64,000 nucleotides of DNA, taken from NCBI RefSeq assembly GCF_001375555.1, contig NZ_CTDZ01000009.1, forward strand, positions 737,758-801,757, in the 5' to 3' direction. The position numbers and the translations under genes were made by a program. Every line of letters begins with the position of its first letter. Position 1 is the stretch's first letter. The notes below the pieces were generated by a model. It had not been told where the DNA came from and searched no databases. It saw only the letters and a list, made by a program, of their open reading frames with translations. This DNA comes from Numidum massiliense. Its GTDB lineage: Bacteria > Bacillota > Bacilli > Thermoactinomycetales > Novibacillaceae. Below, in pieces: positions 42,588-51,627 of the stretch.

Positions 42588-43020
42588 ATGTTCATGGCAC
42601 ATAACCGGTTACACATAATCGATGAACACGTCCATGACACATACGCGCTTGGAGAACAAGCAGAAGCGGCGTTCAGAGATAATAAGTTGGAAGACTATCA
42701 AACGTTTACCCAACTTTATGGGTTACAATTGTTGAAAGGTAAAGACACCAGAACCAGAAACAAAGGTACATATCGCGACCGTGCAAGGGATGATGCGGCG
42801 CATTTTTTACAGTGAGAAAGGGGAAGATACGCCGCCCGTTGACCGCTACGATTGTATCATTGTCGACGAGGCGCACCGAGGCTACACGTTAGAGTTAGAC
42901 CGCGAATACGTCAGTAAATATCGGCAAGTCCTCGATTACTTCGATGCCGCACGCATCGGCTTAATCGCGACGCCCGCGTGCCATACGACAGAAATATTCG
43001 GCAAACCGGTGTATACTTAG
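42588..43020 (+). pseudogene. Relic of a type I restriction enzyme R subunit (hsdR)
   Basis: Two fragments in different frames match the HsdR helicase region: NRLHIIDEHVHDTYALGEQAEAAFR ... YQTFTQLYGLQLL (42588-42750 frame), then VQGMMRRIFYSEKGEDTPPV, the DEAD-box segment DCIIVDEAHRG and ARIGLIATPACHTTEIFGKPVY in another frame. Here ATVQGMMRRIFYS continues across the frameshift. It ends abruptly at a stop. No hsdM or hsdS is present. It is clearly non-functional. Confidence 0.8.
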
Positions 43021-43559
43021 CGGTGTGTCATTTTACATCGCCCAAGCGACCCGAAGGGCTCCATGTCAAGCCGCCATCGGCGCTCATTCTAGTCGAGGTT
43101 ACTTTTACACAAATTAGGGCTTGATCACGTCACGGTCCCAACCCATACATAAAGGTCTCGACTGATGATCAAGGCATTATTAAGGTGGATTTCTTAATTT
43201 GTTATGAAGTGAAAAATGAGGTGGATTTATGGTTCAATGTGATGAATGGAAAGCTATATCAATTAACAGCCTTGGGAAAAATATAAGGGTCTGCTTTTCA
43301 ATCAAATTCACATTGGTATGCATATTGATTATGTGTTAAAAATGGAGCCTTCCTTTCTCGGACAGGCAATATCGTCAGCTTTTGGGCGTTTTAGATAAGC
43401 TATAACAGTATATCTATTATTCTACTAAGCTACCTCAATCAAGACAAAAAATTTTGACCTGACAAGCAGGAATTAGCCGACTTTCGTCGAATACACTGAC
43501 ATAGCAGACAATCTAGGCATCGTAGATCATAAACTATGCGACGATAGGAGGTAGATGAA
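43021..43559. other. 539-bp region without an intact gene; possible IS scar
   Basis: Near 43060 the sequence GGCTCCATGTCAAGCCG nearly matches GGCTCCGTGTCAAGCCG just inside the IS3 right end at ~52900, suggesting a remnant of a related element. A 50-60 codon open stretch around 43170-43340 (KVDFLICYEVKNEVDLWFN) has no recognised product and no RBS. The AGGAGG of the following regulator ends the region. Confidence 0.4.
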
Positions 43560-44879
43560 ATGGAAATCGATTCGATAACCCTCGGATCACTCATGCGGAA
43601 ACGCCGCAAGGAAATGGGGCTGACGTTAAGCGACTTAGCCGATGAAAGCGTCTCCGTTCCGACAATTAGCAACATCGAACGCGGCATTACCCACAACCTG
43701 AGCAGCGATAAAGTTGCCTACATACGGGAAAAACTCGGTTTAACGGATGACGTGCTAATGCAAATGCAGCAAAAAACGGAAGTTGAAGAACAGCAGTTTA
43801 AGCGGAAATTGTCCATTATTAGGAACTTGCTCGAGGTAAAGCAGTTCGATGAAGCGCGCAGGAGAATAAGTGATTTAGAGAAAGAAGAGCGGTTAGCAGA
43901 GTTCCCGCAGTTGGCCGTAGATGTGCAATTGCAGAAAGGATCTGTCTTGTGGCGGCAAGGCCACTATGACCGCGCAAAAAATGCGTTGCAACAAGTGTTT
44001 CGCTTGCACAAGGAAACTGGTGTTGATACGAACGCAAACCTTGAAGCCGAAGCGTATTTTAACTTGTCATTGACGGTATTTTATGGCGACCAAGATTATG
44101 AGAAAGCGATTGAGTATGCCGACTTAGGTTTGGAAGCCATTCGTAAGGAGGACAGTCAGCTTAAGGGGCGTCTATTGTACCAGAAGGCGAACTGTTACTA
44201 CCATTTTGAACGAGATACCGAGGCATACAGGTATGCGATGGAGTCACGTGCACTATGTGAGCAGACACACGACATCAAGATTTTCCTGCTAACGTACAAC
44301 ATGGAAGGTCTGGTTCTTTCTAACCAACGGCTTTACAAACAGGCGATCAAAGTGTTTGAACAGGCACTGGATCGGGCTACGTTGTATTATAATGAGCCGC
44401 GTTTAGTAAGTGTCCTCTATCTCAATATGGGTGATTCGTATTATCGGAAAAAAGAGTACGATAAGGCTTTGGAGTATTACGATATTGCCTTTGACTTAAT
44501 TCGGCACAGTCCAGAACATACGCTAGTAGTTGTGTATTATTCGTATGGGGAAGTGTATTACGAGTTAGAGGAATACGATAAGGCGATCGAATATGTGAAT
44601 AAGGCTAGTGCACTCGCGGAGAAACTTCGGATTAGTTCGGAGTACTTACCGCTTCTGATCCTTAAAGCGAAAATTGCTATGGGTAAGAATGAGTCCGAAG
44701 TAGAAAGGGTCTGTCAAGAAGGCATTAAACTGGCCAAGAAAAGTAAGTTGTACAACAAAATGAAGGAGTTTCACTTCGTTTTAGCGAATTATTTTGAGCG
44801 AGCGGGTAATCGCGAAGCATTTAGGCAGGAGGCCGAAAATATGTATCATATTGAGGCTTTACTGCAAAGGAGGGAATGA
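43560..44879 (+). CDS. RRNPP-family peptide-responsive regulator (HTH + TPR)
   Basis: 439 residues. An XRE-type HTH (SLMRKRRKEMGLTLSDLADE, PTISNIERGI) covers residues 8-60. About eight TPR-like repeats follow (e.g. AEAYFNLSLTVFYGDQDYEK, LVSVLYLNMGDSYYRKKEYD, VVVYYSYGEVYYELEEYD). This is the plan of PlcR/NprR/PrgX-like receptors, which bind re-imported signalling peptides. A tiny secreted-peptide gene starts one base after its stop. Good RBS (AGGAGGTAGATGAA). Target genes unknown. Confidence 0.88.
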   Translation: MEIDSITLGSLMRKRRKEMGLTLSDLADESVSVPTISNIERGITHNLSSDKVAYIREKLGLTDDVLMQMQQKTEVEEQQFKRKLSIIRNLLEVKQFDEARRRISDLEKEERLAEFPQLAVDVQLQKGSVLWRQGHYDRAKNALQQVFRLHKETGVDTNANLEAEAYFNLSLTVFYGDQDYEKAIEYADLGLEAIRKEDSQLKGRLLYQKANCYYHFERDTEAYRYAMESRALCEQTHDIKIFLLTYNMEGLVLSNQRLYKQAIKVFEQALDRATLYYNEPRLVSVLYLNMGDSYYRKKEYDKALEYYDIAFDLIRHSPEHTLVVVYYSYGEVYYELEEYDKAIEYVNKASALAEKLRISSEYLPLLILKAKIAMGKNESEVERVCQEGIKLAKKSKLYNKMKEFHFVLANYFERAGNREAFRQEAENMYHIEALLQRRE

Positions 44880-44880
44880 A

Positions 44881-45012
44881 TTGAAAAAAATTGTCGCATC
44901 ACTTACTATCATTGCACTATTACTGATGCCGTTTACTGCTTTTGCCAGTCCCACGGGACCTGGCCCTGATTTAGGTGCATTAAAAGTTAAACAAAAACAG
45001 ATTGTGAAGTAA
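44881..45012 (+). CDS. Secreted signalling propeptide of the RRNPP pair
   Basis: 43 residues from a TTG with AAGGAGG 7 nt upstream, beginning 1 nt after the receptor stop. It has a classical signal peptide (KKIVASLTIIALLLMPFTAF, likely cleavage after AFA). The mature part is SPTGPGPDLGALKVKQKQ plus IVK. This is the shape of Phr/NprX/PapR precursors; the active peptide would be cut from the C-terminal 20 residues. The sequence is unlike the pheromones I know (e.g. SKPDIVG). A terminator follows. Confidence 0.8.
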   Translation: MKKIVASLTIIALLLMPFTAFASPTGPGPDLGALKVKQKQIVK

Positions 45013-45051: not shown

Positions 45052-45079
45052 GGGGATAGTGAGTACACTGTCCCCTTTT
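45052..45079 (+). terminator. Terminator of the RRNPP receptor-peptide operon
   Basis: 10-bp stem GGGGATAGTG / CACTGTCCCC (one G-U), loop AGTA, followed by TTTT. Confidence 0.82.
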
Positions 45080-45379: not shown

Positions 45380-45769
45380 TTAATCGTGTTCGTGATCCTG
45401 CATGGCATGCCATACTCTAATCATTTTTTTAACATTGCGTTCGGGATCTTTCATAAGATCATGGATCATTGAGGCGAACTGCGGGTTTCTCTTCATTTCA
45501 TTGAAGATGATAAATTCAGCTTCTGTAAGTTCAATCGTTTGCCCAGCAAATATGAGCATTGGTTGCGTTTGATTATCCGTACGTCCCACATGGTAGTCAA
45601 TGCTGACATCAAAGAAATTTGCAAAGGCGATGATAAGATCCATTTCAGGTTTTCTAAATCCATTTTCATAACCTGAAATAGTGGATTCGGCAAGGTTAAA
45701 TTTCATCCCTAATTCCTTCATAGTCAAATTGTTTTGCTTTCGAAGTTCTCGTAGACGATTGCTGAGCAT
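45380..45769 (-). CDS. XRE-family regulator (129 aa)
   Basis: The second ATG (45769) has GAGAGGAG at ideal distance, giving MLSNRLRELRKQNNLTMKEL. HTH residues 1-60 include STISGYENGFRKPEMDLIIA. The C-terminal ~60 residues carry the FNEMKRNPQFASMIHDL helix shared with the remnant next door. It resembles phage/ICE-type repressors. It is divergent from another HTH gene, with a repeated operator-like motif between them, so it probably represses its own promoter. Confidence 0.85.
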   Translation of the reverse strand: MLSNRLRELRKQNNLTMKELGMKFNLAESTISGYENGFRKPEMDLIIAFANFFDVSIDYHVGRTDNQTQPMLIFAGQTIELTEAEFIIFNEMKRNPQFASMIHDLMKDPERNVKKMIRVWHAMQDHEHD

Positions 45770-45796
45770 GCTCATACTCCTCTCGGTTTCATTATA

Positions 45797-45918: not shown

Positions 45919-46149
45919 TTGGATAGTTTATTGAAACGGACGCGATTCGCACATGGGTTGAGCATTGAAGAAGCTGCAAAAAAGCTTGGTATCCCTAGCG
46001 GTTATTTATCACAAATTGAAAATGGACATCGCTTAATTAGTGCTGAGCGTGCTACACAGATCGCCAAGATATACGACCAAAAACGAATCGACTTATTCAA
46101 ACCTATTCGCTACGCAACGCGAGAAGCCGGAACGTTATCTCTTGATTAA
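45919..46149 (+). CDS. Small XRE-family HTH protein (76 aa)
   Basis: TTG start with GGGGGTG upstream. Almost the whole protein is an HTH: KRTRFAHGLSIEEAAKKLGI then PSGYLSQIENGHRL. No ligand or oligomerisation domain. Divergent from the 45380 regulator; forms a small HTH cluster of the kind found in integrated elements. Confidence 0.82.
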   Translation: MDSLLKRTRFAHGLSIEEAAKKLGIPSGYLSQIENGHRLISAERATQIAKIYDQKRIDLFKPIRYATREAGTLSLD

Positions 46150-46272
46150 GGTAAATATGGCCATCTTTCAGGTCGTACAGAAAAACGATTTAGTAAGGAA
46201 CTGTAATGGTAGTATAACCAGTTTTTGGTCATTGGATTCTATGTAACTTAGCGAAGATAAGGAGGTTTCGCC

Positions 46273-46536
46273 ATGCGCCAATGGCTCATCGACACCCGCC
46301 AGTCCAAAGGTCTAACCCAACAACACGTCGCTTGCCTTGCCGGAATCTCCCGCAGTTACTACTCACAAATTGAAAGCGGCGCCAAAACACCGGGTAAGGA
46401 AACGGCAAAAAAGGTGGCACACGCGTTACAGTGCCACGTCGCGCTTTTTTACTTAACAAAAGTCGACGATTGGTGTGTCGCTGAACTGAACAAACTGGTG
46501 CGTTCGTCACAGCAGTCTGTCGTGAGAAACGAATGA
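46273..46536 (+). CDS. Small XRE-family HTH protein (87 aa)
   Basis: ATG with AAGGAGG. HTH visible as TRQSKGLTQQHVACLAGISR and SYYSQIESGAKTPGKETAKK. The tail (LYLTKVDDWCVAELNKLVRS-like) is short. This resembles phage-type Cro/CI regulators. Third HTH gene in 1.2 kb. The 386 bp that follow to gltS show no gene. Confidence 0.84.
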   Translation: MRQWLIDTRQSKGLTQQHVACLAGISRSYYSQIESGAKTPGKETAKKVAHALQCHVALFYLTKVDDWCVAELNKLVRSSQQSVVRNE

Positions 46537-46922
46537 CTCATTGGCAATGGTTGGTCATGGATCAAGGGAAAGGGGGGATGAGATGGGTAGAGCGATAAGT
46601 AGCAAATCGGAAATCACAAATTAAAGCAGTGATCTGTGGGCATGATCTGTCATAGCGATGTGTCACGATAATGAGTCACTGCAATCGGTAAGGTCAGAAA
46701 GGCAAAGCGTTTGTTGCATATTGCAGGTCAACCTATCAACGGGTTAACGGTTTATAAAGTTTGGTAACGGGGTTGAAAACAGCGTGCAAGCAAAGGCTGC
46801 AACGTCCAAGGATCGGTAACAAAACCACGATCTATAAAGGGGTCTATAAACAGAGACATGGGGACGTTCAGGTGGCGCGCTCAATTTAAGAAAACATCAT
46901 CACTTATTGGGAGGAATCTTTC

Positions 46923-48311
46923 GTGTTTCCATCGGAAAAAATCACGTCTGCCAACGTAGAGACACTGTTGTTTTACGTGGCGGTGTTAGGGGTGTTGTTG
47001 CTCGTCGGGGTGTTTTTGCGCGTGAAGGTGAAGCTGTTTCAGAAGTTTTTCATTTCCGCTGCCCTCATCGCAGGGGCGTTAGGGCTCGCGCTCGGGTCGT
47101 ACGGATTAGGGGTGTTGCCGGCCGAGATGACGGAAAGTTGGGGCGCACTACCGGGGGCGCTCATCACCGTCGTGTTTGCGCCGATGTTGATGGGGATGAC
47201 GGTGCCTAATCCGAAGAAAGTCGGCAATATCATTATGCCACAGCTTTATTTCGGGTATATCGGTGAGTGTCTGCAAGTGTCGCTCCCGTTTATCCTTACG
47301 GCGCTACTACTCACGCCGTTGTGGGACGTGAATGGGATGTTTGGGTCCATTGTGGAAATCGGGTTTTCCGGCGGGCACGGGACGGCCGGTGGGATGGTCG
47401 ACGTGTTCGACACGCTCGGTTGGTCGGACGGGGGACCGCTCGGGATGACGTCGGCGACGGTTGGCCTACTCGTCGGTATTGTCGTCGGGATGATCCTCAT
47501 TAACTACGGGGTGCGTAAAGGGTACACGTCGGTCGTAAAGAATGTGCAGGAGCTGAAGGTGACACAAACGGGGGATCTCCTGCCGCGGGACAAGCAGGCT
47601 GTCGGGGCGAAGGTGACGCTCAATAAAGATGCCATTGAGTCATTTGCGTTTCATGCGGCACTCATCTCGCTAGCGATCTTGATCGGTTGGGGGATGCAAG
47701 TTGTGATCGGCCAGTGGATTGCGGGGATGCCGTTGTTCCCGCTGGCGATGGTCGGTGGCTTAGTCGTGCAGCTGTTGATCGGAAAGACGCGCTGGGCAGA
47801 GGCCGTCGATCGAGCGACGTTTCAGCGCATTCAAGGGTTGGCGCTTGAATTTCTCATCGTCGGGGCGATCGCTTCGATTAAAGTACCCGTCGTCGTCGCC
47901 TATGCGGTGCCGCTACTCGTCTTGATGGTCGTGACGGCCGCGCTAATGGTTTGGTACGTGTTTTGGGCAGGGCCGCGCTTGTTTTCCCGCCACTGGTTTG
48001 AAAGCGCCATCGTCAATTACGGGTCATTGACGGGCGTGGCGGCGGTCGGGTTGATGCTGCTGCGCACGGTGGATCCGGAGATGGAAACGGAGGCAGGACC
48101 GGGGTATGCGCTTCGTTCGCCCTTCATTAGCCCGTTTATTGGAGGCGGATTGGTCACGTCGATGCTACCGTCACTGGCGTTCACGTACGGGGCGTTGCCG
48201 GTTGGCCTCGTGTTTTTGGCGGTGGGGATCGGGTTATGTGTGTTGGCGCGGCTGACAGGGTATTGGGTGAGTCCGGTCGTACGGAAGGTGAGTCGTACAG
48301 TCGCTAACTGA
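46923..48311 (+). CDS. GltS-like Na+/glutamate-family symporter
   Basis: 462 residues with about ten to twelve membrane segments. The reentrant-loop motif GFSGGHGTAGGMVD matches the GltS family (glutamate:Na+ symporter). GGAGG-type RBS with an ATG-equivalent GTG start. Downstream (305 bp) is an ornithine cyclodeaminase-family gene; joint amino acid use is plausible. The exact substrate is uncertain. Confidence 0.85.
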   Translation: MFPSEKITSANVETLLFYVAVLGVLLLVGVFLRVKVKLFQKFFISAALIAGALGLALGSYGLGVLPAEMTESWGALPGALITVVFAPMLMGMTVPNPKKVGNIIMPQLYFGYIGECLQVSLPFILTALLLTPLWDVNGMFGSIVEIGFSGGHGTAGGMVDVFDTLGWSDGGPLGMTSATVGLLVGIVVGMILINYGVRKGYTSVVKNVQELKVTQTGDLLPRDKQAVGAKVTLNKDAIESFAFHAALISLAILIGWGMQVVIGQWIAGMPLFPLAMVGGLVVQLLIGKTRWAEAVDRATFQRIQGLALEFLIVGAIASIKVPVVVAYAVPLLVLMVVTAALMVWYVFWAGPRLFSRHWFESAIVNYGSLTGVAAVGLMLLRTVDPEMETEAGPGYALRSPFISPFIGGGLVTSMLPSLAFTYGALPVGLVFLAVGIGLCVLARLTGYWVSPVVRKVSRTVAN

Positions 48312-48616
48312 ACGAAGGTACTGGGTGAGTTTTGGCTGTCGGCAACGGTAGCCCGATTATAACGGACGTCATGCAGTCGAAAGTTGTTGTGGCGCATCAG
48401 TTGCTATGTCATCGACAGGTGTTGCGGTGCATACATGTGACGCATACATGCAACACACAGTTGGTGGACTAATTAGGGTTAAGCAGCCGCCCATATTTCG
48501 AAAGATTCCCTAAGTATACCCTAAATATAGTCGACGTTCGTCAGGAGAGTTGTTGATCCGGGAGTAGAGAGTCGTTCGTCACCAGAATTATAAGGTTCAT
48601 ACGAGGAGGAAGATCA

Positions 48617-49651
48617 ATGTTTGCCCATGAGTTATTGTACTTATCGCAAAGCGACGTCATCCGCTGTGGCGGTATGTCGATGCGTGCGGTAATGGCTGAT
48701 TTGGCACACGTGTTGGCACTGCATGCGGCGGGGGATTACGTGCTTCCGCCGAAGGTGGTGCTTCGTTGGGGAGATTTGGACAGTGAAGGGGAGCGAGGAC
48801 GTATTAACGGCATGCCCGGGTATGTCGGCGGTAGCGTCAACATCGCTGGCATGAAGTGGGTCGGCAGTGCGCCCCACAACCCGGCTAAATACGGGTTGCC
48901 ACGCGCGTCGGCGCTCATCGTGTTGAACGATCCAGAGACGATGTTACCGCTTGCGGTCATGGACGGGACGGTCATTAGCGCGATGCGCACGGGCGGGGTG
49001 ACGGGTGTGGCGGCGAGGTACTTGGCGCGCCCCGATGCGACGCTCGCCGGGATTATCGGCGCCGGGACGCAAAACCGCACCCAACTGATGGCGCTCAAAA
49101 CGGCGTTACCGCAACTTGCGACGGTGCGCGTGTACGATTTGTCAGCGGAACGGGCGGCGGCGTTTGCGGAAGCGGTTAGTGCACAATTAGCTCTTGATGT
49201 GATACCGGTGACGAGCGGGGAAGAAGCGGTGCGCGGCGCTGATGTCGTCGTGACCGCCACGACAGCTAAACGACCGGTCGTAGAGGCGCCGTGGTTCGGG
49301 GCAGGCTGCTTTTATGCACACGTCGGCGGGTTTGAAGCGGAATACGAGGTAGTGGAACGTGCGGATCAGATCGTCGTCGACCATTGGGAAGGGATTAAGC
49401 ACCGCGGCGCACAGACGCTCGCCTTGATGCACCGCGAGGGGCGTTTTTCCGACGACCAAATTGACGCGGAGCTGGGGGAGATCGTTACTGGCGACAAGTG
49501 TGGACGTACGGACGAGGAGGCGTTCATTTATTTTAATGCGGTCGGAATGGCGCTCGACGATTTGGTCGTCGCTAAGCGCGTGTATGACTGTGCGAAGACG
49601 CGTGGGGTTGGGACGTCGGTTCGTTTGTGGGAAGAGCCGGCGTTTGTGTAA
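48617..49651 (+). CDS. Ornithine cyclodeaminase / mu-crystallin family enzyme
   Basis: 344 residues. The Rossmann signature is GIIGAGTQNRTQLMAL. The substrate-side residues KYGLPRASALIVLND and the TVISAMRTGGVTGVAARYLA block are typical of the OCD family. RBS GAGGAGGAAG. Members cyclise ornithine to proline, or act as alanine dehydrogenases or in diaminopropionate synthesis; sequence alone does not choose. Ends before a strong terminator, probably forming a unit with the GltS-like gene. Confidence 0.85.
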   Translation: MFAHELLYLSQSDVIRCGGMSMRAVMADLAHVLALHAAGDYVLPPKVVLRWGDLDSEGERGRINGMPGYVGGSVNIAGMKWVGSAPHNPAKYGLPRASALIVLNDPETMLPLAVMDGTVISAMRTGGVTGVAARYLARPDATLAGIIGAGTQNRTQLMALKTALPQLATVRVYDLSAERAAAFAEAVSAQLALDVIPVTSGEEAVRGADVVVTATTAKRPVVEAPWFGAGCFYAHVGGFEAEYEVVERADQIVVDHWEGIKHRGAQTLALMHREGRFSDDQIDAELGEIVTGDKCGRTDEEAFIYFNAVGMALDDLVVAKRVYDCAKTRGVGTSVRLWEEPAFV

Positions 49652-49773
49652 GTGGTTGTACGTATATAAGGGTTGCGGATGGAACGAGTGAACGAGTCAT
49701 CGCCTAGTGGTTCGGTGGGTGGTGGTTCATGTCAACCGCCGTTGCGAGGCGCTAGCCTCAGTCAATTGAGGGA

Positions 49774-49819: not shown

Positions 49820-50086
49820 AGGCTTGATGAATGCGAGTGGGGTTTAAATGCAAGGAACATCATTCCATGTTTCATTTGTAAACGTTTTATAACTATAGTA
49901 AAATGTACTGCATAATCGTGAGACTAGCAAATATAATAGAAAATGTTTTTGAGGGGGCCCATGAATGGTGGAATATTCATCCGGCGAGATTTCCAGATCA
50001 ACATCAACGTGGCCTTCATTCTAAAAAGTGGCTCTTCGCTCTTTCTCATGGGTAAACCATGGGAGCCTTTTCGCGCTTAAAAGGTT

Positions 50087-50143
50087 CTCATAGACGAAAG
50101 CAGCCGTCAAGAAAAGCGCTTGACTCCTGCTTTCGTCTATGAG
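50087..50143. repeat. Long hairpin between transposase stop and left IS end
   Basis: 17-bp perfect arms (CTCATAGACGAAAGCAG and complement) with a further 6-bp inner pairing GTCAAG/CTTGAC. It lies downstream of the minus-strand transposase and could terminate or block incoming transcription. Confidence 0.8.
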
Positions 50144-50169
50144 ATGGGGCAGCTAAGCGGAAAGGCTAG

Positions 50170-51423
50170 TTATGCTTGCCTCGACGCGCAAGCCCGAATG
50201 TACAACTTGTTTGCAGTCATGTACACCATATGAATGAGATTTTGGGGATTACGGTAACCACGTGCCCTTCGCTTTGCCGCCTGTATAAGGCTATTGAGAC
50301 CTTCTAAAAGACCGTTAGTCATACGTGTTGTAAACCAGCGCAAAATACCCTCCTTATGTTTCTTTATCGTCTTTGAGACACGTATAAATGGGGGTAATTG
50401 CGAGCGTGTTGCCCAGCCTAACCATTCATCTAAGAAAATGTCGGCAAAGAGTTGGTTAACCTGCCATAAATCCTGTAAAGCCAGTTTCATTCGATACGCC
50501 CGCCCCGTTTTAAGGTTACCATCTTTTAATCGCTCGAGTGTTTTCTTTTGATCGTTGGTTAACATATCTTCGTTCTTAAGCCAAATATATTTGGTTTTAT
50601 GTAACTCCGGCGTCTGTTTTTGCTCTTCCTTTCGGACGTCGTCGACTGCCTCGTTAACCATTTTCATCACATGAAACTTGTCGAATGTGATCTGGGCGTG
50701 CGGAAAGGCGTCCTGAATCCCCCTAATAAAAGCGGGGGACATGTCACAGCACATTTCAGCGATTTGATCTGCATCTACCCCGTTGCTGGATAAGTGCTCT
50801 CGAAAGCGATGGATCGTCTCCGAGCCCTTTCCTTCGACAGCAAATAGAACCAGTTTACGATCCGCATCCACAAACAAGGTGATGTACTGGTGACCTTTAC
50901 GAGAGGACGTTTCGTCTATCGCGACACGCTTTACATTAGACAGGTCAAGTTCCTCCATGGCTCTTTCCACGTAATGGCGAAAAATGCGCCATAACCGCGT
51001 GTCATGTTCACGTAGTTCACGAGAGGCAGCCTTCACTGGCATTTCCGACATTAGGCGCATCGCGTAGGATTCGAAATGCCAGGTAAAATGGGATGAGGGT
51101 CGAGACCAGCTGACGTGTACAGTGATGACCTTATGACATTGACGACAGGTTACACGAGGGACACGGGCATGGACATACGTTTTCCACTCCCAAAAATCTA
51201 AGTGCCGCCATGATTTTGAAGAAACATCGTATGCTTTGGAGGGGGTTCCACACGTTGGACATGGAAATTCGGCACCACGAGGGAAATCGAGATACAGGTT
51301 CCATTGTTCCTGTTCTTCGTCGTACGCCATGACTGTTAATTCCCAAGGTTTTTCGATTAAGAGCGCCGACTGCAATAGCTTAATTAACGTGGTATTCTCT
51401 GATGTGATCCACATAGTAACCAT
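50170..51423 (-). CDS. tnp: ISL3-family transposase
   Basis: About 417 residues from 51423 (or 414 from 51414); an earlier in-frame ATG falls inside the terminal repeat. The N-terminal zinc finger (CPTCGT ... CRQCH), the DDE catalytic domain (VAIDETSSRKGHQYITLFVD, CCDMSPAFIRGI, DKFHVMKMVNEAVD) and the terminal ...NGLLEGLNSLIQAAKRRARG with Glu are typical. No frameshift or stop is seen, so it may be active. Confidence 0.93.
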   Translation of the reverse strand: MVTMWITSENTTLIKLLQSALLIEKPWELTVMAYDEEQEQWNLYLDFPRGAEFPCPTCGTPSKAYDVSSKSWRHLDFWEWKTYVHARVPRVTCRQCHKVITVHVSWSRPSSHFTWHFESYAMRLMSEMPVKAASRELREHDTRLWRIFRHYVERAMEELDLSNVKRVAIDETSSRKGHQYITLFVDADRKLVLFAVEGKGSETIHRFREHLSSNGVDADQIAEMCCDMSPAFIRGIQDAFPHAQITFDKFHVMKMVNEAVDDVRKEEQKQTPELHKTKYIWLKNEDMLTNDQKKTLERLKDGNLKTGRAYRMKLALQDLWQVNQLFADIFLDEWLGWATRSQLPPFIRVSKTIKKHKEGILRWFTTRMTNGLLEGLNSLIQAAKRRARGYRNPQNLIHMVYMTANKLYIRACASRQA

Positions 51424-51627
51424 ACCGCCTTTTCTATCTTTTTTAGCAGTATGGACAACTTTGGAATCAGCAATACCCATCAGCTATAGCGAGGAGGCTA
51501 AAAAGTCTACTTCTCGAAAACTATTTCCAAGGGGGAAAAAGTAATGAGTGATTTTAGTGCTAGACTAAAAAGTAGACACACCGAATCGGGGGATTATAAT
51601 AAAACTAAATGATTCGAGGTGTTCTAC

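Follow-up and report, generated by a model that had tools for sequence, protein, structure and literature searches.

The receptor gene and the small gene behind it

Within the window, a 64,000-nucleotide stretch of the 3.76 Mb Numidum massiliense genome (C9:737758-801757), a gene encoding a 439-aa protein with HTH and TPR regions is separated by one base from a 43-codon gene that starts with TTG. The two genes, together with the elements and neighbors considered below, are as follows:

42588..43020, + strand: type I restriction R-subunit relic, including a ResIII fragment (42781-43017; Pfam E 7e-8)
43466..43494, + strand: match to a sigma-H-type promoter, GCAGGAATT, 11-nt spacer, GTCGAATAC (core 43468-43492)
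43560..44879, + strand: RRNPP-type receptor gene, 439 aa, with N-terminal HTH_3 and C-terminal TPR superhelix (Pfam, AlphaFold2 model)
44881..45012, + strand: predicted pheromone precursor gene, 43 codons, TTG start, with Sec signal peptide MKKIVASLTIIALLLMPFTAFA and tail SPTGPGPDLGALKVKQKQIVK
44947..44976, + strand: putative pheromone-containing segment SPTGPGPDLG around a conserved proline (from the proline column and the L016/L097 comparison; ends approximate)
45052..45075, + strand: intrinsic terminator closing the two-gene unit (stem and fold energy)
45380-45787, - strand: XRE-type HTH gene (HTH_3)
45919-46149, + strand: XRE-type HTH gene (HTH_3)
46273-46536, + strand: XRE-type HTH gene (HTH_3)
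46259..49662, + strand: block of a GltS-type symporter and an ornithine cyclodeaminase (blastn, OCD_Mu_crystall)

The receptor gene has a strong ribosome-binding site, AGGAGG, ahead of it, and GGAGGG stands before the TTG of the precursor gene. The precursor reading frame has an alternative in-frame TTG upstream, at 44794, and the start at 44881 was chosen because of the ribosome-binding site GGAGGG and the paralogues. The terminator consists of a 10-pair stem (GGGGATAGTG/CACTGTCCCC) followed by TTTTATAA, and the segment 45040-45090 folds with -18.3 kcal/mol (z -3.0). The layout given in the original prediction (an HTH-TPR receptor, a one-base gap, a 43-codon TTG gene with signal peptide and short tail, then a terminator) was borne out by the coordinates and the sequence, and the hsdR relic and XRE genes that it placed beside the pair were recovered as ResIII/REase_I and HTH_3 matches.

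The receptor model resembles NprR and Rap proteins

The Pfam search placed HTH_3 at residues 12-61 of the receptor (E 1.8e-8) and several TPR families, the best being TPR_12 (E 1.8e-25, on four stretches); in NCBIfam, no model scored above its cut-off. A structural model was built with AlphaFold2 from a 41-row alignment of relatives (pLDDT 92.5, pTM 0.86). Since a Foldseek ranking by E-value alone puts generic TPR proteins first, an aligner reporting Z scores, VIA-align, was used instead. The top match was NprR (5dbk; Z 32.6, 3.9 A over 351 residues), with which the receptor shares about 17% identity in the structural alignment, followed by the Rap proteins RapJ, RapF and Rap-phi3T at Z about 31, several of them peptide-bound. 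The NprX-bound structure of NprR scored Z 30.5 and AimR Z 24, and for the best matches, which are NprR in peptide-free and NprX-bound form and the Raps, about 342-355 residues were aligned.

The helices at residues 63 to 438 align with NprR over 351 residues, giving the model an HTH plus nine-TPR architecture and the NprR/Rap/AimR-type superhelix by which RRNPP/RRNPPA receptors are recognised. Because NprR and then Rap were the best matches, the RRNPP reading is supported, and the fold goes with these proteins rather than with a non-peptide TPR family. Judged by its modelled fold, the receptor groups with NprR, QssR and Rap in the clan of non-degenerate nine-TPR proteins (PMC12700828). Unrelated, generic TPR proteins follow closely at Z 25-30, so the fold alone is insufficient for assigning function, and the case is completed by the linkage to a precursor that bears a signal peptide. 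Generic TPR proteins also made up most of the results in two further searches, being mainly viral ones in BFVD, and accompanied by a few Raps in a PDB profile search with the middle part of the receptor.

The pair is one of a lineage-specific family

The genome holds about 15 receptor loci, some of them broken, and the near-full-length paralogues are 29-58% identical to the window receptor. An intact receptor is accompanied by an intact precursor at eight loci (the window, L002, L003, L006, L007, L008, L009 and L013), and a precursor follows a broken or truncated receptor at four others (L004, L005, L014 and L017). L016 has a probable shorter precursor. Because L010, L011 and L015 show no clear precursor, some receptors may act without one of their own or may be decaying.

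When a profile of the small proteins was run against the whole genome, exactly 12 matches were obtained (E 3.6e-19 to 1.3e-13), the next one having E 0.07. All 12 lie directly behind a receptor or a receptor relic and none is an orphan, far more than chance pairing would give. With about 15 receptor loci and 12 precursors, the pairs constitute a lineage-specific family, in which receptor and small gene stay together in the paralogues as well as in the related genome G001. Together with the NprR/Rap fold, this linkage supports the receptor/propeptide operon of NprR-NprX layout proposed for the window. The original prediction of a new RRNPP pair holds as to its RRNPP nature; the pair is not a lone one, being among about a dozen in the genome, and a multi-pair organisation is known from AloR/AloP.

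In the receptor tree, two lineages are common to this genome and its sister G001 (L016/L097 and L011/L096), and the lineage that includes the window receptor, with L066 of G001 as its sister, expanded solely in this genome. AimR of the arbitrium system is carried by temperate phages; for the receptor family here, plasmid and phage records gave no match, and a scan of viral contigs gave six weak relatives.

The precursor and its candidate signal

An alignment of the 12 homologous precursors divides the protein into a conserved signal sequence, comprising the first 22 residues and ending in AFA, and a tail of 21 residues. The window gene therefore has the signal sequence, from which secretion is predicted, and the short tail expected of the small adjacent gene in RRNPP/RRNPPA systems. 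Within the tail, a proline near position 5 is nearly invariant and a final lysine is common, and the other positions vary. Compared pairwise, the tails show about 1.5 to 5 times more non-synonymous difference than the signals, and by pairwise counts amino-acid change in the tail also exceeds that in the TPR region. In every comparison where dS could be estimated, dN was lower than dS, and a Mantel test showed no significant tracking between receptor and tail divergence (r 0.21, p 0.18, n = 10).

The orthologous precursors of L016 and L097 carry GEAYPIVM and GESYPIGSHQ, respectively. Their common part, GE[AS]YPI, stands at the very C-terminus in L016, which suggests that the signal comes from the residues near the proline. 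For the window precursor, SPTGPGPDLG, the stretch surrounding the conserved proline, probably contains the mature signal, and the C-terminal residues KQKQIVK could be an alternative. We also considered the window tail as a relative of NprX (PGPDLG versus SKPDIVG) and dropped this idea, as the likeness amounts to two or three residues.

That the small reading frame instead encodes a secreted or membrane peptide, such as a toxin or leader, standing behind the receptor by chance is in our judgement very unlikely. The small protein matches no curated family above its cut-off, which would suit such a peptide, but it is linked one-to-one with an NprR/Rap-fold receptor in 12 cases and has a signal ending in AFA with a hydrophilic, variable tail. 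Precursors downstream of receptors in distant Thermoactinomycetales relatives, moreover, carry C-terminal repeats: four copies of QSEPGGL (L079), four of NPGEY (L071) and two of SEPAH (L070). Pheromone precursors can carry repeated peptides. We therefore retain the pheromone precursor reading, and the pair very probably forms an RRNPP-type operon through which cells sense their own peptide.

Two observations concern other loci. The multi-copy peptides 3' of the receptors at L079:2700-3050, L071 and L070 are probable mature pheromones of those loci. In G001, a gene for a 366-aa TPR protein is followed by a 170-aa reading frame built from 13-residue units resembling ETAKIMVPGPHGI, immediately 5' of the receptor L096 (L152:7786-9533); this frame has the appearance of another pheromone precursor, a highly repetitive one.

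A sigma-H-type element upstream of the receptors

The element upstream of the window receptor resembles the sigma-H consensus RNAGGAWWW ... RNNGAATWW (PMC8510167). With slightly relaxed boxes, sequences like GCAGGAATT and GTCGAAT at sigma-H spacing occur in 15 of the 16 receptor upstream regions from the same genome. One of these 15, L019, was accepted on visual inspection or on a match lying further away, so the number to rely on is the strict count, in which 11 of 19 regions carry the element against 0.08 expected in shuffles. Genome-wide, the pattern AGGAWTTN11-15CGAAT has 17 matches, seven of them just upstream of receptors of this family. As a consensus match, the element is a putative sigma-H promoter. 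The sequence TGTCGAA also resembles a Spo0A box. The genome contains sigH and eight matches to Opp-type binding proteins.

Receptor loci and the neighboring defence genes

The R-subunit relic beside the window pair is also matched by the PADLOC REase_I model PDLC03047 (E 9e-5, genome 780514-780738), and several other receptor loci adjoin defence genes. According to PADLOC, brxA, brxB, brxC, pglX and pglZ lie around the pairs L002/L005, a type III restriction pair adjoins L007/L009, and type I restriction remnants adjoin L006 and L017. In the BREX locus (G000:C9:2265488-2285982; L129, L117, L130), brxA-brxB-brxC-pglX is split from pglZ by an insert of about 9 kb, which contains two receptor/precursor pairs, an IS3-like transposase and lipase-like genes. 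One of the pairs sits between pglX and pglZ on the strand of the BREX operon.

Each of the five restriction or BREX loci found in the genome has a receptor gene or receptor relic close by, at gaps of 242, 579, 1520, 129 and 284 bases; the gaps of 242 and 1520 bases are measured to receptor relics, and about 5 kb separate intact L006 from its restriction remnant. Under random placement, at least four of five loci would lie within 2 kb with p about 2e-5 in this post hoc test. A genome-wide search with the models N6_Mtase, N6_N4_Mtase, ResIII and two REase_I found no further restriction or BREX locus, the remaining ResIII matches being taken as ordinary helicases.

Given this proximity, the defence genes may possibly be under the control of the adjacent receptors, which gives the original prediction's suggestion of a controlled accessory element a footing in the genome. 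In the stronger form of this idea, the pheromone switch would act mainly on the defence genes next to it, so that restriction-modification or BREX would be turned up or down by cell density. The five of five linked loci, the pair on the BREX operon's own strand and the two pairs beside the type III system speak for it. The arguments on the other side lead us to consider it unlikely. Receptors in G001 and other relatives are generally not beside such genes, the link there being absent or loose, and two further BREX operons that were read have no receptor inside. Across the order, receptor linkage with N6 methylases follows no rule, the nearest lying about 3, 14 and 15 kb away in G027, G021 and G006. 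The restriction genes are relics in the window and at L128 and L120, yet both genes of the window pair are intact; no such neighbor appears in the stretches read around several receptors (L003, L013 and L016, for example), and defence islands draw in many kinds of genes. A further proposal, that these are private peptide channels tied to anti-phage systems, each cassette travelling with the neighboring restriction or BREX genes and setting their expression by density, seems to us quite improbable. Our literature search found no paper tying RRNPP pairs to restriction or BREX loci. Judging by the title of one cited work, a second communication system of phage phi3T reportedly may regulate host defence.

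The surroundings of the pairs point to another explanation. The GltS-cyclodeaminase block, in which the symporter was named by reading the sequence and has no Pfam match, is found next to three separate receptor loci (window 46259-49662, L120 and L121/L132; blastn), its copies sharing 87-99% of their DNA sequence, which suggests recent segmental duplication or conversion. The receptor pairs next to these copies are only about 65% identical in DNA. A block up to 95-99% identical beside such divergent pairs suggests cassette exchange at duplicated hot spots. We accordingly lean towards a pheromone switch that acts on other targets, such as its own operon or genes for sporulation and other post-exponential functions, the defence setting reflecting a shared insertion hot spot that swaps cassettes of receptor pairs, XRE genes and restriction genes. 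The three block copies flank three different restriction loci, and transposase-like and LXG genes occur within those stretches. This reading is compatible with the RRNPP operon and differs on the targets alone.

Two further features were recorded in these regions. LXG-domain (toxin-type) genes occur at L128:6967-8568 and L129:11260-12738, in islands with receptor loci. At 50024-51499 of the window, 1476 bases are 99.8% identical to G000:C9 2725.1-2726.6 kb (L131:8636-10111).

Discussion

We propose that the pair works as a switch of NprR-like design. Sigma-H would transcribe receptor and precursor together in post-exponential growth, the precursor would be exported by Sec and cleaved by signal peptidase after AFA, and further proteolysis of SPTGPGPDLG would release a short peptide with the conserved proline in it. 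This processing is proposed by analogy with NprX, which derives from a central part of the C-terminal region in a precursor of 43 aa. At high cell density an oligopeptide permease would take the peptide back up, and its binding in the concave TPR groove would alter the DNA-binding state of the receptor and switch target genes. The divergent tails of the paralogues would create separate signalling channels. The non-significant Mantel result and the three receptors lacking a clear precursor weigh against this proposal.

Among characterised systems, NprR-NprX is close in its HTH and TPR superhelix (Z 32.6), in the precursor gene directly behind the receptor and in precursor length. The NprX precursor has 43 aa, its active SKPDIVG is central in the C-terminal region, and nprX is also read from a SigH promoter (PMC4147580); a proline-containing active part in that position is what we infer for the window precursor. 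The window pair differs in its tail, SPTGPGPDLGALKVKQKQIVK instead of SKPDIVG, in a sigma-H-type match 5' of the receptor versus the promoter of nprX, in having no nprA or protease gene recognised among the reading frames beside the pair, in about 15 paralogous loci within one genome, and in the structural-alignment identity of about 17%. With Rap-Phr the window pair shares the superhelix (Z about 31), a precursor gene for a predicted secreted peptide behind the receptor and a putative sigma-H promoter, of the type that most phr genes have (PMC4147580), but its receptor carries an HTH DNA-binding domain (HTH_3, residues 12-61).

By published description, AloR/AloP of the Paenibacillaceae likewise comprises many pairs of HTH-TPR receptor and short secreted precursor per genome, with 16 to 40 receptors (PMC7425212). 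The TPRs of AloR are mostly divergent and were missed by a TPR detector, a different program from the Pfam search in which those of the window receptor are strong (PMC7425212); the host family also differs, and no Spo0E-like neighbor was noticed at the loci read here. RRNPP_detector likewise gives computationally predicted receptor/propeptide pairs, including four BGC-linked candidates in Thermoactinomycetaceae (PMC10075063). Multi-pair RRNPP families are already known from Paenibacillus (PMC7425212), and the present one appears to add a new case in this lineage, with an interesting genomic setting.

Most likely, the family consists of post-exponential, self-sensing transcription switches of NprR-like design that expanded as AloR/AloP did in Paenibacillus. 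Large multi-channel RRNPP signalling, known in Paenibacillaceae, is hereby extended to a Thermoactinomycetales lineage, and the uniform sigma-H-type promoter suggests that all channels would open in one growth phase. With their divergent tails, the eight paralogous pairs that are intact lend themselves to studying how the specificity of pheromones changes once their genes have duplicated. Should the linkage with defence genes prove regulatory, a peptide would directly connect population density with restriction and BREX.
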